From positions 1-44,548 of the IMG/VR virus record IMGVR_UViG_3300050821_003477: a stretch of DNA of 44,548 nucleotides, one strand, 5' to 3'. The notes under the pieces are model-generated. The model had not been told where the DNA came from, ran no database searches, and saw only the letters and a list, made by a program, of their open reading frames with translations. Below, in pieces: positions 1,305 through 23,047 of this stretch (positions within the stretch are counted from its first letter, which is position 1; every line of letters starts with the position of its first letter). Position numbers and translations under genes: made by a program. Source of the DNA: a virus.

Positions 1305-1709
1305 TCACGGGAGCATCATCGTCAGACATGCAAAGCCGATCATGAAAAACGCAAAATCCAGAATCCCATCGGATATGCTTTGAACGCCTTCAGTCTCCCA
1401 AGGTGCCGATGACTTCCCGTGATACGGAATACACTCAATCGCTTCTTTCGCAAGCGGAATTAAAATGCTGAGCGCGCCGATCTGTCGAACCGATGTGATG
1501 TGAAAAATTCTGTGCTCTAAAAGCAGTGTCGTCGGGATGAATGCACCCCATGCAAAATGTGCAAGCTGGGCGACTGATGTTTCCCGAATTCTTTTGAGCA
1601 CGCTCATCGGTTGTTCCAAAGGCCATCGGCCCGTCTTCCAGCGGCACATCAAAGCAAGCCAGCTGTAGGTCAAACCTGCGTACGCCAGCACCGCTGCGAA
1701 AAGAGTCAT
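1305..1709 (-). CDS. Multi-pass membrane protein (about 4 helices)
   Basis: From ATG 1709 the protein has hydrophobic segments at its start (TLFAAVLAYAGLTYSWLAL), middle (AHFAWGAFIPTTLLL and ALSILIPLAKEAIECI) and end (ILDFAFFMIGFACLTMMLP), consistent with four membrane helices. Charged and His residues within helices 2-3 (H, K, E) are unusual for a simple holin and hint at an enzyme or channel. The frame is open upstream, with in-frame ATGs at 1832 and 1874. I prefer 1709 because the extra N-terminus reads as low-complexity non-protein sequence, but no start has a good SD. The gene heads the leftward operon. Function unknown. Confidence 0.6.
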   Translation of the reverse strand: MTLFAAVLAYAGLTYSWLALMCRWKTGRWPLEQPMSVLKRIRETSVAQLAHFAWGAFIPTTLLLEHRIFHITSVRQIGALSILIPLAKEAIECIPYHGKSSAPWETEGVQSISDGILDFAFFMIGFACLTMMLP

Positions 1710-1830
1710 GTGGCTGCTCGGTTTACCACTGGGGTTTCGAGACACCGGCCACAGCGATGTTTTGATCCTTACGCTTCCGCGCCGGATCGCTCTAGTATTG
1801 CCGAGATATCTTGGAGGCTTGTACCCTCCC

Positions 1831-1860
1831 ATTAAATGGCATGGCTTACCCCTCGAATTT
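1831..1860 (-). repeat. Copy A of GAGGGGTAAGCCATGCC repeat
   Basis: Read on the minus strand this is TTCGAGGGGTAAGCCATGCC followed by ATTTAAT. It matches copies at 12441-12460, 12841-12869 and 31328-31356. Here the ATG opens only a 16-codon frame (starting MPFNGR), unlike the copy at 31344. An SD-like GAGGGG lies 6 nt before the ATG. Confidence 0.7.
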
Positions 1861-1882
1861 CGTAACACCATCATTAAGGTAT

Positions 1883-1921
1883 GGTGACACTATGTGGTGA
1901 CACAATAAGGTGACAGCTTTT
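1883..1921 (+). repeat. Three tandem 13-bp iterons (GGTGACAC)
   Basis: GGTGACAC starts at 1883 and 1896, and GGTGACAG at 1909, an exact 13-bp period. Two more copies of the octamer lie in the arms of the nearby inverted repeat (GTGTCACC at 1989-1996 and GGTGACAC at 2117-2124). Regularly spaced short repeats of this kind usually bind an initiator or repressor protein. Confidence 0.8.
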
Positions 1922-1960
1922 CGAGTACCGTGTAAGAAGTTCTAGTCCCTTTATATAATA

Positions 1961-2152
1961 GGGAGCGTTACGAAAATAGGTCAAAATTGTGTCACCAGCA
2001 GACGGTGTATATTCATGTCTATTAAGAAAACTACTCAGTATGCTATGTAAATAATATATAGTAAAGGACTTAAAGATAGATTTCTGGATTTTTCTCTCCT
2101 TTCACCTCCGTCCGCTGGTGACACCATTTTCGGGTCTTTTCGTAACGCTCCC
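1961..2152. repeat. 45-bp imperfect inverted repeat around AT-rich core
   Basis: The arm at 1961-2005 begins GGGAGCGTTACGAAAA and ends GTGTCACCAGCAGACGG. The reverse complement of 2108-2152 begins GGGAGCGTTACGAAAA and ends GTGTCACCAGCGGACGG. Most of the 45 positions match. The 102 nt between the arms are AT-rich (for example AATAATATATAGTAAAG), as expected of a DNA-unwinding element or an intrinsically melting promoter. Each arm carries one GTTACGAAA motif and one GTGTCACC octamer. Confidence 0.85.
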
Positions 2153-2209
2153 ATTAGTCAATGAGGACATTGTATAGCACCTTTAAGGCATCATGCTGTT
2201 ATATCCATA

Positions 2210-2223
2210 AAGGAACGTTCCTT
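2210..2223. repeat. Perfect palindrome AAGGAACGTTCCTT
   Basis: This 14-bp perfect dyad lies in the control region about 60 nt right of the large inverted repeat. It is an operator-like site for a dimeric regulator. No protein can be matched to it from the sequence. Confidence 0.6.
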
Positions 2224-2543
2224 AAGCTGTTATGCCTATACGATACGTGCCACGGTACACGTCTACCTCCCAAAATTACCTGTTACGAAAATCGAGACCT
2301 TGGGGACACAATTATCAACAACTTAGCCTTTGGCACGCCCGCCTCCGGCAATCCTGCCGATCTATATCCCGATCAGGAGCGCCCCAGCACGTCCTGCGCA
2401 ATCTCACCACATTCGCCCCAACAATCTCACCATGCTGCCCAGTCTATAGCGCATTCGGCCAGCAAACCGCCGCGCTGCCTATTATACGATGCGCCCGAGG
2501 TGTCGCCGGTCGCAGACATTCCGCCCGGTCGCCCAGCGCTGAC

Positions 2544-2578
2544 ATATGAGATTTCATATATTCGGGTATATTCTACCC
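2544..2578. promoter_or_regulatory. Two small dyads upstream of the first rightward promoter
   Basis: ATATGA/TCATAT with a 4-nt centre (2544-2559) is followed at once by GGGTA/TACCC with a 5-nt loop (2564-2578). Both lie 65-100 nt upstream of the TTGACA at 2643, a usual place for operators. Confidence 0.45.
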
Positions 2579-2642
2579 AATCTATGAGATTCGGGATGCG
2601 GAGATCAGGCCGGTTATTCTCCGCAAATTCTGATGCGAGCGC

Positions 2643-2671
2643 TTGACATTCGCCTCAAATTCCTTTAGACT
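2643..2671 (+). promoter_or_regulatory. Sigma70-like promoter for the rightward block
   Basis: TTGACA at 2643-2648, a 17-bp spacer and TAGACT at 2666-2671. Transcription would start near 2678, leaving a short leader with an SD (GGAGG) before ATG 2691. Confidence 0.65.
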
Positions 2672-2690: not shown

Positions 2691-3104
2691 ATGATCAGCC
2701 AAAAACTTCAAGATCAGGTGAATTACATTCTGGGCGCGACCGATGTCAATCCTGAAATTGAAAAGCAAGCTGAAATTACGGAGAATCGAATCAAAGAGAT
2801 TCTCCACAATTGGCACGAAGCTGGCCGGGCAGAATTCGAAAGGTCTTATCCGAATTTGAATTTTGATTCCCCGGATTACTCCACACACTTTCACGTCGGC
2901 TCGAAATACATTCGTCTGGATGTCGGAAGCTCCGGCGCATTCTTGCTCGATTCCACCACCGGCCTGATCTACGGAATCAAAGGCTACGGCCAAGTAGACA
3001 AGAAAAAGATCGCGGGCGATGCCTCCGATCCGAATTTCACCGGTGCCTCACTCTACAATCTCCGCTTCAAGCGCGGAGCATTCAATTTCGCGGGGAGGAG
3101 CTAA
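2691..3104 (+). CDS. Uncharacterised protein (137 aa), first rightward gene
   Basis: ATG 2691 follows GGAGG with good spacing and lies about 13 nt after the predicted transcription start. An in-frame ATG at 2679 is less well placed. The N-terminal 50 residues are Gln/Glu-rich and helical. The C-terminal half (SKYIRLDVGSSGAFLLDSTT, then GLIYGIKGYGQVDKKK) looks like a small beta-rich domain of a kind seen in phage hypothetical proteins that read out a few residues then a Gly turn. It is the first gene after the control region and so probably early. No family was firmly recognised. Confidence 0.75.
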   Translation: MISQKLQDQVNYILGATDVNPEIEKQAEITENRIKEILHNWHEAGRAEFERSYPNLNFDSPDYSTHFHVGSKYIRLDVGSSGAFLLDSTTGLIYGIKGYGQVDKKKIAGDASDPNFTGASLYNLRFKRGAFNFAGRS

Positions 3105-4258: not shown

Positions 4259-4500
4259 TGCCTTACACCGCGCCGAAAACACCTGAAGAACGCGAGCACG
4301 CTAAGAATACAGAGCACGGCTGGCGCTGGGAGCTAGTTGTCGGCAAAGAGCTAAAAGACTGGGCCACCCGTGTCATGGTCCGCGACGGGATATCACGCAA
4401 GGAGGCGCGGCAATACCTCCTCAAGAAGATCGAGCGAATGGATAGACCGTGGAGCGAACGAATAGCGAACCTGTTTTCTCGGTTCGATTTTAGGTGTTGA
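4258..4500 (+). CDS. Uncharacterised basic protein (80 aa)
   Basis: ATG 4258 overlaps the previous stop (TAATG), with SD GGAGGTGAG. The sequence is Lys/Arg/Glu-rich and helical (KEARQYLLKKIERMDRPWSE). Its stop TGA lies inside the -35 box of the promoter at 4497. No family was recognised. Confidence 0.68.
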   Translation: MPYTAPKTPEEREHAKNTEHGWRWELVVGKELKDWATRVMVRDGISRKEARQYLLKKIERMDRPWSERIANLFSRFDFRC

Positions 4501-4525
4501 CATCGGTCGAGCAATTTCGTAACAT
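4497..4525 (+). promoter_or_regulatory. Sigma70-like promoter with GTTACGAAA motif
   Basis: TTGACA at 4497-4502, a 17-bp spacer and TAACAT at 4520-4525. AATTTCGTAAC (4513-4523) overlaps the -10. The flanks TAGGTG before and AATTTCGTAACATT after the -35 are shared with the promoter at 7221. Confidence 0.68.
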
Positions 4526-6701: not shown

Positions 6702-7217
6702 ATGAGATACGGACAACTTTTGCTGATGGCGATTCTGATTCCGTGGTTCAACATGAAGCCTGCGCCGGTTGTCACGCCAACACCCGATCCTTACCAGAGC
6801 AGCGAATTCCGCACGGCGCTCTTCGAGGCTTCGAAGGTGTACGGCAAAGGCGGATGCGGCGATGCTAAGCTCGCGGAGATGACAGCGCGCAATGCGGTCC
6901 GCACCGGCCTGCCAGCGAATCTAATCGCCAGCATCGTTGTGATCGAATCAACATGCAATCCGCTGGCGATCAACAAGACCACGGGCGACGTGGGGATAAT
7001 GCAGCTGGACCTATCCGCGCAGGGCGCTGCGTACGATTTCCAGTCAGTCAATCCCTTCAACCCAGAACGAAATATGGAGATGGGTTCGAACATTCTTGCG
7101 GCGTCAGTCAAGACGTATGGCGTGCGCAAAGGTGTGGGGCGCTATAATGGCGTTGGGCCGAACATGGACATCTACAGCGCGAGGGTACTGGCGATGGCCG
7201 GGCCGTTACGAAAATAG
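6702..7217 (+). CDS. Secreted lytic transglycosylase-like protein
   Basis: The N-terminus MRYGQLLLMAILIPWF is a signal peptide or anchor, followed by a Pro-rich linker (KPAPVVTPTPDP). The rest carries the SLT-domain pattern: catalytic Glu in VVIESTCNP, then GDVGIMQLD (the GxMQ motif), then RYNG near the C-terminus. At 171 aa it is the size of a compact soluble lytic transglycosylase domain. This family cleaves peptidoglycan between MurNAc and GlcNAc to give 1,6-anhydroMurNAc. In phages such proteins open the wall for DNA entry or assist lysis. SD GGAGG. The gene is followed by a promoter. Confidence 0.88.
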   Translation: MRYGQLLLMAILIPWFNMKPAPVVTPTPDPYQSSEFRTALFEASKVYGKGGCGDAKLAEMTARNAVRTGLPANLIASIVVIESTCNPLAINKTTGDVGIMQLDLSAQGAAYDFQSVNPFNPERNMEMGSNILAASVKTYGVRKGVGRYNGVGPNMDIYSARVLAMAGPLRK

Positions 7218-7249
7218 GTGTTGACAAAGACAGGGTAATTTCGTAACAT
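7205..7249 (+). promoter_or_regulatory. Promoter flanked by inverted GTTACGAAA motifs
   Basis: TTGACA at 7221-7226, a 17-bp spacer and TAACAT at 7244-7249. GTTACGAAAAT (7205-7215) and its near-inverse AATTTCGTAAC (7237-7247) bracket the -35, as expected of an operator pair. The first motif overlaps the end of the transglycosylase gene. Confidence 0.7.
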
Positions 7250-7507: not shown

Positions 7508-7779
7508 AGGTTCGCGCTGGCAAGCAGTACATCTTCTATCCGAATCTGCTGGATCGTTATGACGGTCGCACGCAGCTTGTTCCGGGTTCCGTGGTGACAG
7601 TCGTGAACCTCCCCGGCGCTCCGCCAGCGAACACGATGCAACACGCGCACGTCAATTACGATGGCAAATTCGCCGGATTGGTTCATACGAATTCGCTGTA
7701 TGCGCTGTCCGATGCGCAGCTGGTGATCGATGCCATCAAGCACGATCTTGAATTTCGAAAGGGAGCGAAGCATGAATAA
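7504..7779 (+). CDS. Small beta-rich protein (91 aa)
   Basis: ATG 7504 overlaps the previous stop (ATGA), with SD GGAGG. Alternating hydrophobic strands (KQYIFYPNLLDRY, GSVVTVVNLPGAPP, HVNYDGKFAGLVHTNSLYAL) suggest an SH3-like barrel, a common small phage protein shape. The C-terminal helix is basic. Function not assigned. Confidence 0.7.
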   Translation: MKVRAGKQYIFYPNLLDRYDGRTQLVPGSVVTVVNLPGAPPANTMQHAHVNYDGKFAGLVHTNSLYALSDAQLVIDAIKHDLEFRKGAKHE

Positions 7780-8275
7780 GCGCGCACCATTTCAGTACGT
7801 TAGCTCCCGCTGGCTTCGAGCAAAGGGCGGTCATCCGGACGAGAGTCGGGATTGCAGCGTTCGTGCGCTAGCGACTGCTACCGGCCTGCCATACGCAGAG
7901 GCACATGCAGTGATGGCGGCAAGCGGTCGCCTTCCGAAGCAGGCATGGTGGACTGACCGGGGTCTTAAATTTCTTGCAGAACTCGGAGCAATTAAATTTG
8001 AAGAAGTCAAGTTGATCGACTGGTCGGATCGCGTTGAATCTAAGGCGTTGTTTCGTAGCTATGAACTCGACAAAGGGGACGTTTATGACAGACGGCAGCG
8101 TAGCAGATTCAAGGCGGTTACAATCGGCGCTTTGCTACGTCGTTTGCCAGCTGGTCATTACGTCTGCCATACCAGAGATCACGCCTTTGCTCTGATCGAT
8201 GGAGTAGTTCACGATGGCCGCGCACCCGGTCTTAATACTGCAATTGAACAATGCTGGAGGGTTGAACGTGCGTAA
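7772..8275 (+). CDS. Papain-like cysteine-peptidase-fold protein
   Basis: The N-terminal motif DCSVRALATATGLPYAEAHA has the candidate nucleophile Cys at about residue 28 on a helix. The C-terminal YVCHTRDHAFALIDGVVHDG carries the candidate catalytic His in the usual His-x-hydrophobic strand. This pairing matches the small C39-like/papain-like proteins common in phages. Most are untested and some may not be proteases. The 167-aa length fits the single-domain type. The start overlaps the previous gene by 8 nt, with SD GGGAG. Confidence 0.72.
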   Translation: MNKRAPFQYVSSRWLRAKGGHPDESRDCSVRALATATGLPYAEAHAVMAASGRLPKQAWWTDRGLKFLAELGAIKFEEVKLIDWSDRVESKALFRSYELDKGDVYDRRQRSRFKAVTIGALLRRLPAGHYVCHTRDHAFALIDGVVHDGRAPGLNTAIEQCWRVERA

Positions 8276-20811: not shown

Positions 20812-20902
20812 CGGTCTCCCGAAAGGGATGGTGAAAGCCGACCGTGACAAGACAAGGCTTGACTGTCGGGAGAGACCGGCTACGGATTTCGAGGTAAAAA
20901 CT
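20812..20902 (+). ncRNA. Structured intergenic element between SSB-like and prim-pol genes
   Basis: TCTCCCGA (20815-20822) pairs with TCGGGAGA (20866-20873), extended by CGG/CCG, giving an 11-bp stem with a 2-nt bulge. Alternatively CCC-GAAA-GGG (20818-20827) and GGT-GAAA-GCC (20830-20839) form GNRA-loop hairpins, and GAC...CAAG/CTTG...GTC (20840-20867) forms another. The two folds compete for the same strand, as in a regulatory switch. It may be a riboswitch, attenuator or mRNA processing signal. Confidence 0.55.
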
Positions 20903-23047
20903 TTGTCCTTCAAAGATATCGCGCAGCCGCTGATCGAACGCGGTGTACCGGTTATACCTCTTTTACCCCGCACTAAAAAAGCGTTTTCGGACGACTGGCC
21001 CGCTTTGGCCTCAACTGATCCTGCGCAGATATTGCGCTGGGATGCTCAGTATCCCGATGCAAATATCGGTTGCGCTGCCAAGGCTGAACCGAATGGCATC
21101 TGGTTTTTCGAAATCGACGATCCTAAACTTTTCACGCAGATCGAGCGTGAGACCGGCCAAAAATTCCCCAAGACATTCATCGTTCGCAGTCGCCCCGGTC
21201 GTGGTCATCTCTACTGGCGACACAACGCGGCCAGCGTTGCGCTTGCTACAGCTGCTGCCAAAGCGTATATCAGCATCAAAACTCCGGACGGCCACGAAGC
21301 ATGCAGCGCACGATTAAACCATGCTTACGTCGCCGGGCCGGGAAGCGTTCACCCCGATACGCTGGCGCTTTATGAGATTCGTTCGACTGCACCAATTGTC
21401 GAAGCTCCGCAGTGGCTTATCGATTGGATCAAGAAGAATCACACGGAGAATGAGAAGCTCCCGCTGACTGCACGCCTTGACGGTCCAAAAATTCCTCGCG
21501 GATCACATGACAACGAATTGACGCGCATTGCCGGTAAATTGCGGCAGGATGGTCTCGAAGAGGGAGCCATCGGCGACGCGCTCGTTGAGATATGCGAGAA
21601 GAGGTGCGAAGACTATGGCACAGACTACAAAGAAATGTGCGTCAAAATCGCGCACAGTGTCAGCCGCTACGCTATCGTCGATACCCGCGTCTTACATAAC
21701 GGTGTCCCAATTGAATCAACTCCGCAAGGAGTATATGCTGGAACGACGGCGACGCCGATCACGGCGCAGATTCCTCCGGAAGTTGAAGATGATGTTAAAA
21801 GAGAACCGCTAGTCCATCCGAAGTTCCCCGAATGGGTCATGGAAGGAACGAGCATCTACGATAATTTCGTGAAGCCGTACTGTGATGTGAACTGCCGTTA
21901 TCCGGAATTTATGTTCATGCCTGCGATGGCGTTGATGTTGAACTATCTTGGCACGAAGGTTCACATTGAAGGAAAGCAGAGCATGCCGCTGAGCATCTAT
22001 ATGGTGCTGATTGGTCGCAAGGGTAAGCTCTTTAAGTCGGCCAGCATCCGCGACGCGATGGAATATTTCCGGTTGATGGGCCTACTGGAACATGCGAGTC
22101 CGAATGTCCGTGTTGCCGACGCGAAGACTATGGTCTGGTCCGCTGGATCACCTGAAGGGTTTCTGCTCGGAGTGAACGCCGCGAATTGCAAGAACGCTGT
22201 GCTCTTCTACGATGAACTCGTTACACTCGTGAATAAGTCGGGAATCGATTCAAGTAACATGATTGGCAGTTTACTGAGTGCATATGAAGGTTCTAAGCTC
22301 CAAAACGCGGTTAAAGAGCGTAAAAACAACTATAGCTTCGAACCGCTTTCCTATTGCATCTCAGTCTTGACGTGCGTGACTGACCAAGATTTCCGGAAGC
22401 GATGGAGTAAGCTCGCCGGTGATGACAACGGCCTTGACGAACGATTTTTCTTTCTCTTTCAGCCAGAGACCTTTCGGTCGATGACACCACTCGAAGATGT
22501 GAACTTTGCCGAGGGCGCGCTGAAGACTCGGGCGCTCATCGATAAAGCGGTGCAGCAGAAGACATTCAAAATCACCGATAGTTCTCCGTTGCGAAGCGTG
22601 ATGAATGCGAACGATAAGAATCATGCCGTTTGCGTTGGTCGCTGGGGCAAGGTTACGGGCAGAGTTGAGCAGCGCGCAGAGAAGTGGGCGCTAGCCTTTG
22701 CGGTCGATCTGGGACGAGACGAGATCGACGAAGAATGTATCGAGCGAGGATTGGCTCTGTCCAAGTACGAACTCGAAGTTAAGAACTGGTTGAAAGTTTT
22801 CGAAGCGGAGACCCGTGAGGCTCGGAATCAGCAAGAGGCAATGTATTGGATCGAACGAATGGGCGGAGTCGTCGAGAAGCGCGCCCTCGAACGTCTGCTA
22901 CACGTCGAACGAATCGGCACCTACCAGTGGGCGATGGCCTATAAAGGAATGGTCATGGCCGGATGGATCGCAGAAACGGGAACGGGCACGAAGGGCGATC
23001 CGATTGTTGTGCATCAGCTAGTGCGAATGGAGCAGGAGGAGGAATAA
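20903..23047 (+). CDS. Prim-pol primase/helicase (DUF3987-like C-terminus)
   Basis: From TTG 20903 (SD GAGG at good spacing) the protein is 714 aa. The N-terminal 170 residues have the bifunctional primase/polymerase pattern: GVPVIPLLPRTKKAFSDDW, then WFFEIDDP (acidic metal site), then VRSRPGRGHLYW (sxH-type motif). The C-terminal half contains a degenerate Walker A (VLIGRKGKLFKSAS) and Walker B (AVLFYDELVTL), as in DUF3987-like phage ATPases. It therefore probably primes and unwinds DNA. ATG 20828 is an alternative start that would include the structured element. No SD is well placed there. Confidence 0.85.
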   Translation: MSFKDIAQPLIERGVPVIPLLPRTKKAFSDDWPALASTDPAQILRWDAQYPDANIGCAAKAEPNGIWFFEIDDPKLFTQIERETGQKFPKTFIVRSRPGRGHLYWRHNAASVALATAAAKAYISIKTPDGHEACSARLNHAYVAGPGSVHPDTLALYEIRSTAPIVEAPQWLIDWIKKNHTENEKLPLTARLDGPKIPRGSHDNELTRIAGKLRQDGLEEGAIGDALVEICEKRCEDYGTDYKEMCVKIAHSVSRYAIVDTRVLHNGVPIESTPQGVYAGTTATPITAQIPPEVEDDVKREPLVHPKFPEWVMEGTSIYDNFVKPYCDVNCRYPEFMFMPAMALMLNYLGTKVHIEGKQSMPLSIYMVLIGRKGKLFKSASIRDAMEYFRLMGLLEHASPNVRVADAKTMVWSAGSPEGFLLGVNAANCKNAVLFYDELVTLVNKSGIDSSNMIGSLLSAYEGSKLQNAVKERKNNYSFEPLSYCISVLTCVTDQDFRKRWSKLAGDDNGLDERFFFLFQPETFRSMTPLEDVNFAEGALKTRALIDKAVQQKTFKITDSSPLRSVMNANDKNHAVCVGRWGKVTGRVEQRAEKWALAFAVDLGRDEIDEECIERGLALSKYELEVKNWLKVFEAETREARNQQEAMYWIERMGGVVEKRALERLLHVERIGTYQWAMAYKGMVMAGWIAETGTGTKGDPIVVHQLVRMEQEEE

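Follow-up and report, generated by a model that had tools for sequence, protein, structure and literature searches.

We have identified an array of short repeats (iterons) and nested inverted repeats (IRs) in an uncultured phage genome that we consider likely to be the phage's replication origin. The predicted origin occupies positions 1852-2296 of the window, by which we mean the whole stretch of DNA analysed, a viral record of 44,548 bases in which end repeats are absent. That this is an origin is very probable, given that an element of this kind marks the point where strand bias turns in the genomes of many relatives. On the best reading of the sequence, the candidate origin would be bidirectional, with promoter and operator sites layered on top of it. 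Found in a group of uncultured soil phages with genomes of about 100 kb, the element appears to be a variant of PrimPol/iteron origins rather than something entirely new. An earlier, sequence-only reading of this DNA had left the choice between an origin and a repressor-operator switch. The origin is now the better supported of the two; a switch layer is plausible, although no repressor gene was identified.

The window is rich in replication genes, including a PrimPol-helicase, a family-A DNA polymerase, a UvrD-like helicase, an exonuclease and a ligase, and it also encodes a T5 A1-like DNA transfer protein. Searches found no cultured phage close to the window, no database phage matching its DNA and no close PrimPol in any cultured phage, and a bacterial genome search with the neighbouring protein gave no match. 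Two related contigs served for close comparison: L005, which is about 95% identical to the window, and L004, which is 92 kb long and about 75% identical. The A1-like protein, used as a query, brought in about 80 contigs for a wider comparison, and an independent set of contigs was picked by PrimPol homology alone.

Table 1. Features of the candidate origin, its flanking genes and its putative initiator, in window coordinates.
Feature	Position	Strand	Remarks
Outer nested IR, left half CTCGAATTTCGTAACA	1852..1867	.	partner at 2281-2296
Iteron 1 GGTGACAC	1883..1890	+	retained in L005
Iteron 2 GGTGACAC	1896..1903	+	13 bp past iteron 1; GGTGGCAT in L005
Iteron 3 GGTGACAG	1909..1916	+	13 bp past iteron 2; 7/8 match to GGTGACAC; retained in L005
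Left arm of 45-bp IR	1961..2005	+	contains GTTACGAAAA (1967-1976) and GTGTCACC (1989-1996)
AT-rich core, candidate unwinding region	2006..2107	.	between the IR arms; AAAGGACTT at 2063-2071
Right arm of 45-bp IR	2108..2152	-	contains GGTGACAC (2117-2124) and TTTTCGTAAC (2137-2146)
Outer nested IR, right half TGTTACGAAAATCGAG	2281..2296	.	missing from L005, with a GIY-YIG ORF in that stretch
Degenerate iteron GGGGACAC	2302..2309		just after the right half of the outer IR
First leftward gene	1305..1710	-	likely start ATG at 1710; possible start at 1874, but the upstream reading frame is not conserved
Sigma70-like rightward early promoter, TTGACA-17-TAGACT	2643..2671	+	counterparts TTGACA-17-TAGACT in L005 and TTGACA-18-TAGCAT in L004
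First rightward gene, function unassigned	2691..3104	+	conserved in L005 and L004
PrimPol-helicase (DUF3987-like)-winged-helix replication protein, candidate initiator	20828..23047	+	PF09250, E 7e-21

Much of the layout agrees with what the sequence-only reading had described. Of its three identical iterons in a strict 13-bp period, the period is exact, whereas the third copy is GGTGACAG instead of GGTGACAC. Two further copies do lie in the arms of the 45-bp IR, at 1989-1996 (minus strand, left arm) and 2117-2124 (plus strand, right arm), around a core with an AT content of 0.68-0.76 per 50 bp (up to 76% AT), and the site does sit where transcription diverges, with genes running leftward from about 1710 and rightward from 2691. 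The arms are 84% complementary (38/45) and separated by 102 nt. Enclosing them is an outer nested IR, with halves 94% complementary and 413 nt apart, which is based on TTTCGTAAC, a word present four times in the region; similar outer IRs are present in G003, G029 and G004.

These repeats far exceed what shuffled sequence yields. The best 45-bp inverted match in 1800-2700 pairs at 38 of 45 positions, against a mean of 26.5 and a maximum of 31 in 60 dinucleotide shuffles, and the five copies of GGTGACA in the region were equalled in 0 of 300 shuffles. Across the whole window the 45-bp IR was the sole match at threshold, and its single strand has a fold z of -8.96. An Rfam search at the IR gave no meaningful match; plant miRNA matches from Rfam on a relative's IR were set aside as hairpin artefacts. 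A 161-aa ORF at 2161-2646 is probably no gene, as the L005 sequence differs there.

The same layout, which the sequence-only reading proposed to look for in related phages, was found, and the two closest contigs show how it changes. L005 retains the iterons, their 13-bp spacing and the 45-bp IR. Between the window and L005, 18 positions in the IR arms have changed, three double compensatory changes among them, yet each sequence keeps 38/45 Watson-Crick pairs, and the 102-bp core carries 7 substitutions; this retention of pairing despite arm changes is suggestive, in a comparison of two sequences only. The corresponding gap of L004 has a sequence dissimilar to the window's, with its own 33-nt IR (79%) enclosing an AT-rich core and with 17-nt iterons arranged in tandem, 23 bp apart, more copies of which lie within the IR arms. 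Because L004 has its own IR and iterons in the same gap, the layout has been kept while the sequence changed. Conservation of the iteron spacing is narrower than that of the layout, with 13 bp kept only in the closest relative, L005, and different spacings used elsewhere. The PrimPols of the window and L004 are 44% identical, against 73-86% for the polymerase, helicase and nuclease, a low value that appears to be in step with the diverged repeats.

The flanks of the element hold features of their own. Window positions 1709-1810, about 100 bp upstream of the first leftward gene, are 89% identical to L004, whereas neighbouring coding DNA is about 70-80% identical. This stretch looks like a conserved non-coding leader, since L004 has a different gene behind it and the changes would be mostly nonsynonymous. 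By eye a hairpin is possible there (GGAA in the window, GCAA in L004), although the fold z is only -1.3. A GIY-YIG endonuclease-like ORF (7774-8069; Pfam E 4e-4, just under the cut-off) adjoins the origin-like region of L005, and the first rightward genes of G005 (L158) and G004 (L160) are small ORFs that by eye are GIY-YIG-like and HNH-like, with no Pfam match.

The wider survey, in which contigs were scanned whole for IRs with 32-bp arms and a span of up to 500, indicates that such elements recur. The strongest IR was usually the single outstanding one and lay in the divergent gap (G001, G029, G010, G006, G003 and G004); arms are 113 nt in G004 and G006. Words including GATTGTGTCA and AAGTCCTTTA are common to these gaps beyond shuffle level. 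Tandem arrays of GATATC palindromes, with 22-bp and 33-bp periods, lie beside the IR in G010 (L151 18885-18990) and G006 (L139 4903-5066), and short tandem repeats with telomere-like CCCTAACCCTAACC adjoin it in G034 (L234 1-135). A hairpin-like word, TTGCTGGGGGAGCAA, occurs in the left gap flanks of G004/G006, G005, G010 and G029, twice in some, and its location may be that of a leftward-operon leader.

A change of GC skew, named by the sequence-only reading as a check on an origin, is present at the IR region of the window and in relatives. Five genomes have their skew minimum 1-3.5 kb from the IR, and the top IR lies 0.4-4.2 kb from the minimum in 11 of 13 scorable contigs. The two lie near each other in 5/5 of the discovery set, and in the independent set the top IR is no more than 3.3 kb from the circular GC-skew minimum in six of the eight scorable contigs (binomial p 6e-6; Fisher p 2e-4). 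The exceptions, with the top IR far from the minimum, are G039, a fragment in which the motif cluster is nevertheless present, and G045, which has ties; an outstanding IR of this type is absent from G033. G009 and G012, from a distinct PrimPol clade, have other repeats at the skew minimum. In G003 and G006, whose contigs close circularly, the skew maximum falls roughly opposite the IR. When skew was regressed over 705 sequence windows, side of the IR (t 10.8) outweighed ORF direction (t 1.6), and those windows that are mostly non-coding likewise track the side of the IR. Transcription may still be a cause of the skew, since almost every gene is directed away from the IR and the ORF calls are simple and noisy; the skew is no clean proof of an origin.

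The iteron-like motif gives a second view of the same gaps. Written as [GC]TGTCA[CT][AC], a consensus that is partly post hoc because it was broadened after some test sequences had been seen (G036 and G038 were unseen beforehand), it forms the genome's densest cluster on the IR in 10 of 15 PrimPol-family members and in neither of two outgroups. G044 contains GGTGACAC itself; the cluster of G005 is 10 kb off, and the motif is missing from G001, G029 and G040. Because G029 is without the motif even though its PrimPol is 80% identical to that of G010, a simple link between motif and PrimPol is opposed. A strict link through TTGTGTCAY was rejected, as that word is unclustered in most of the independent set, where only the wider consensus clusters. 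Another word, AAAGGACTT, has only 12 occurrences in the 873 kb searched, yet recurs in origin-like gaps (the window, G001, G006, G009, G029, G040 and G042), including that of G009, which is without the other motif.

Which protein acts at the candidate origin is a more evenly balanced question. The PrimPol-helicase, encoded 18 kb from the IR, has about an even chance of being the initiator. It fits better than the 30924 protein, which the sequence-only reading had put forward as a binder and which is now disfavoured. The predicted structure is confident for the PrimPol domain and the C-terminal winged helix and of low confidence for the helicase, a domain for which the underlying 10-sequence alignment is too thin and whose assignment comes only from a weak match to DUF3987. 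The nearest solved structures to the PrimPol domain are those of the pRN1 ORF904 PrimPol (PDB matches 3m1m, 9aam and 1rni). We envisage that this protein, or a partner encoded with it, would bind the TGTCAC-type iterons, and that binding together with supercoiling would cause the IR/AT-rich core to extrude or melt. Once the helicase part had enlarged the bubble, the PrimPol part would make primers, and the family-A DNA polymerase of the phage would drive two outward-moving forks towards a terminus on roughly the opposite side. The TTTCGTAAC sites and adjacent promoters would probably allow a regulator to influence early transcription at this site.

Signs of such a regulatory layer extend beyond the gap. 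Of the seven TTTCGTAAC copies in the window, four are in the IR region and three at the promoters at 4497 and 7221, where the word overlaps the -10 hexamer. These early promoters (4497-4525 and 7205-7249) have TTGACA-17-TAACAT and GGTGTTGACA in common, and a facing pair of TTTCGTAAC copies brackets the -35 at 7205-7247; judged from its placement, TTTCGTAAC here looks like the operator of a putative regulator. By reading, GATATC palindromes lie between the -35 and -10 of the rightward promoter in G004, G010 and G029, and ACCTATATAGGT does so in G005, the same sites also flanking the origin core in those phages. They look like the sites of a separate, exchangeable regulator because they differ between phages with similar PrimPols. 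An SP6-like promoter was considered for GGTGACACTAT (1883-1893), which we take to resemble the SP6 promoter core, and rejected: a 13-bp spacing of copies leaves too little room for promoters, and no copy stands at other genes. The PF00940 profile for single-subunit RNA polymerase matched nowhere, controls included. It is conceivable, though we hold the idea only tentatively, that these phages represent a distinct class of tailed-phage origin in which nested IRs and TGTCAC-type iterons serve a PrimPol-helicase-winged-helix initiator, and changeable repressor operators (TTTCGTAAC, GATATC or ACCTATATAGGT) in origin and early promoter co-control early transcription and replication.

Could the gap serve transcription control only, with divergent early/late promoters, GGTGACAC and TTTCGTAAC as operators, and replication starting elsewhere? 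Its position between divergent gene clusters, its conserved rightward promoter, the coincidence of the GC-skew minimum with the transcription pivot, the presence of TTTCGTAAC over the -10 of ordinary promoters too and the GATATC or ACCTATATAGGT sites in the rightward-promoter spacer of four relatives are all compatible with this. We nevertheless find it unlikely: GGTGACAC was not found at other window promoters, an IR of 100-200 bp around an AT-rich core exceeds what operators need, PrimPol phages that were selected independently have IRs at their skew minima, and skew depends less on gene direction than on the side of the IR.

Much less probable is another repeat-bearing cis-site, such as a centromere-like partition site, a packaging or attachment site or a hairpin telomere. 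Direct iterons and IRs occur at partition and attachment sites too, and several contigs end near the IR. Against attachment, the tyrosine integrase profile PF00589 found nothing in the window, L004 or L005, contigs that may be incomplete, while controls matched. The contig ends, with overlaps of 119-127 bases, look like circular assembly cuts and other contigs traverse the IR; arms 102 nt apart are also unlike a telomerase palindrome. A 192-bp element with 45-bp inverted ends could recall a MITE-like mobile element with terminal inverted repeats, but by eye no target-site duplication was seen and the copy is single. This explanation and that of a chance structure are the most improbable of all, as elements of different sequence occupy the same place in relatives and the repeats lie far beyond shuffles.

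If the origin reading is right, it bears on a sparsely charted area: few origins of large tailed phages have been mapped, and PrimPol-type initiators have received little study beyond archaeal plasmids. The signature of a unique long IR and motif cluster at the GC-skew minimum, together with one PrimPol family, gives a testable origin prediction for uncultured soil phages of 80-120 kb, and the system allows initiator and origin sequences to be compared over many diverged pairs.

Several known systems share parts of this arrangement. Phage immunity and operator regions likewise have divergent promoters and repeated operator-like sites, but here no repressor was identified and the motif is confined to the IR region. 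Direct iterons beside an AT-rich region recall iteron plasmid and lambda-type origins, from which the element differs in its 13-bp period, its dominant long IR and the lack of a detected Rep or O-type initiator. The iteron of satellite phage P4 may resemble GGTGACAC. P4 also joins primase, helicase and winged helix in one protein, alpha, and has origin repeats (PMC4234260), although its primase is of the Toprim type, unlike the window's PrimPol. The pRN1 family of Sulfolobus plasmids, with its ORF904 PrimPol-SF3 helicase-winged helix protein, has a similar PrimPol-type replication protein with a C-terminal winged helix. The pRN1 stem-loop is about 100 nt, without iterons, and lies directly 3' of the replication gene, whereas the phage IRs span 140-450 bp with a long AT-rich loop and iterons, and that of the window (1961-2152) is at the transcription pivot, 18 kb from 20828-23047. 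In pRN1 the origin is a long stem-loop whose structure is conserved but whose sequence is not, and the authors of that work proposed the same origin type for Bordetella phage BIP-1 (PMC4234260); the phage element described here likewise has a long stem-loop-forming IR whose shape is conserved without conservation of sequence.
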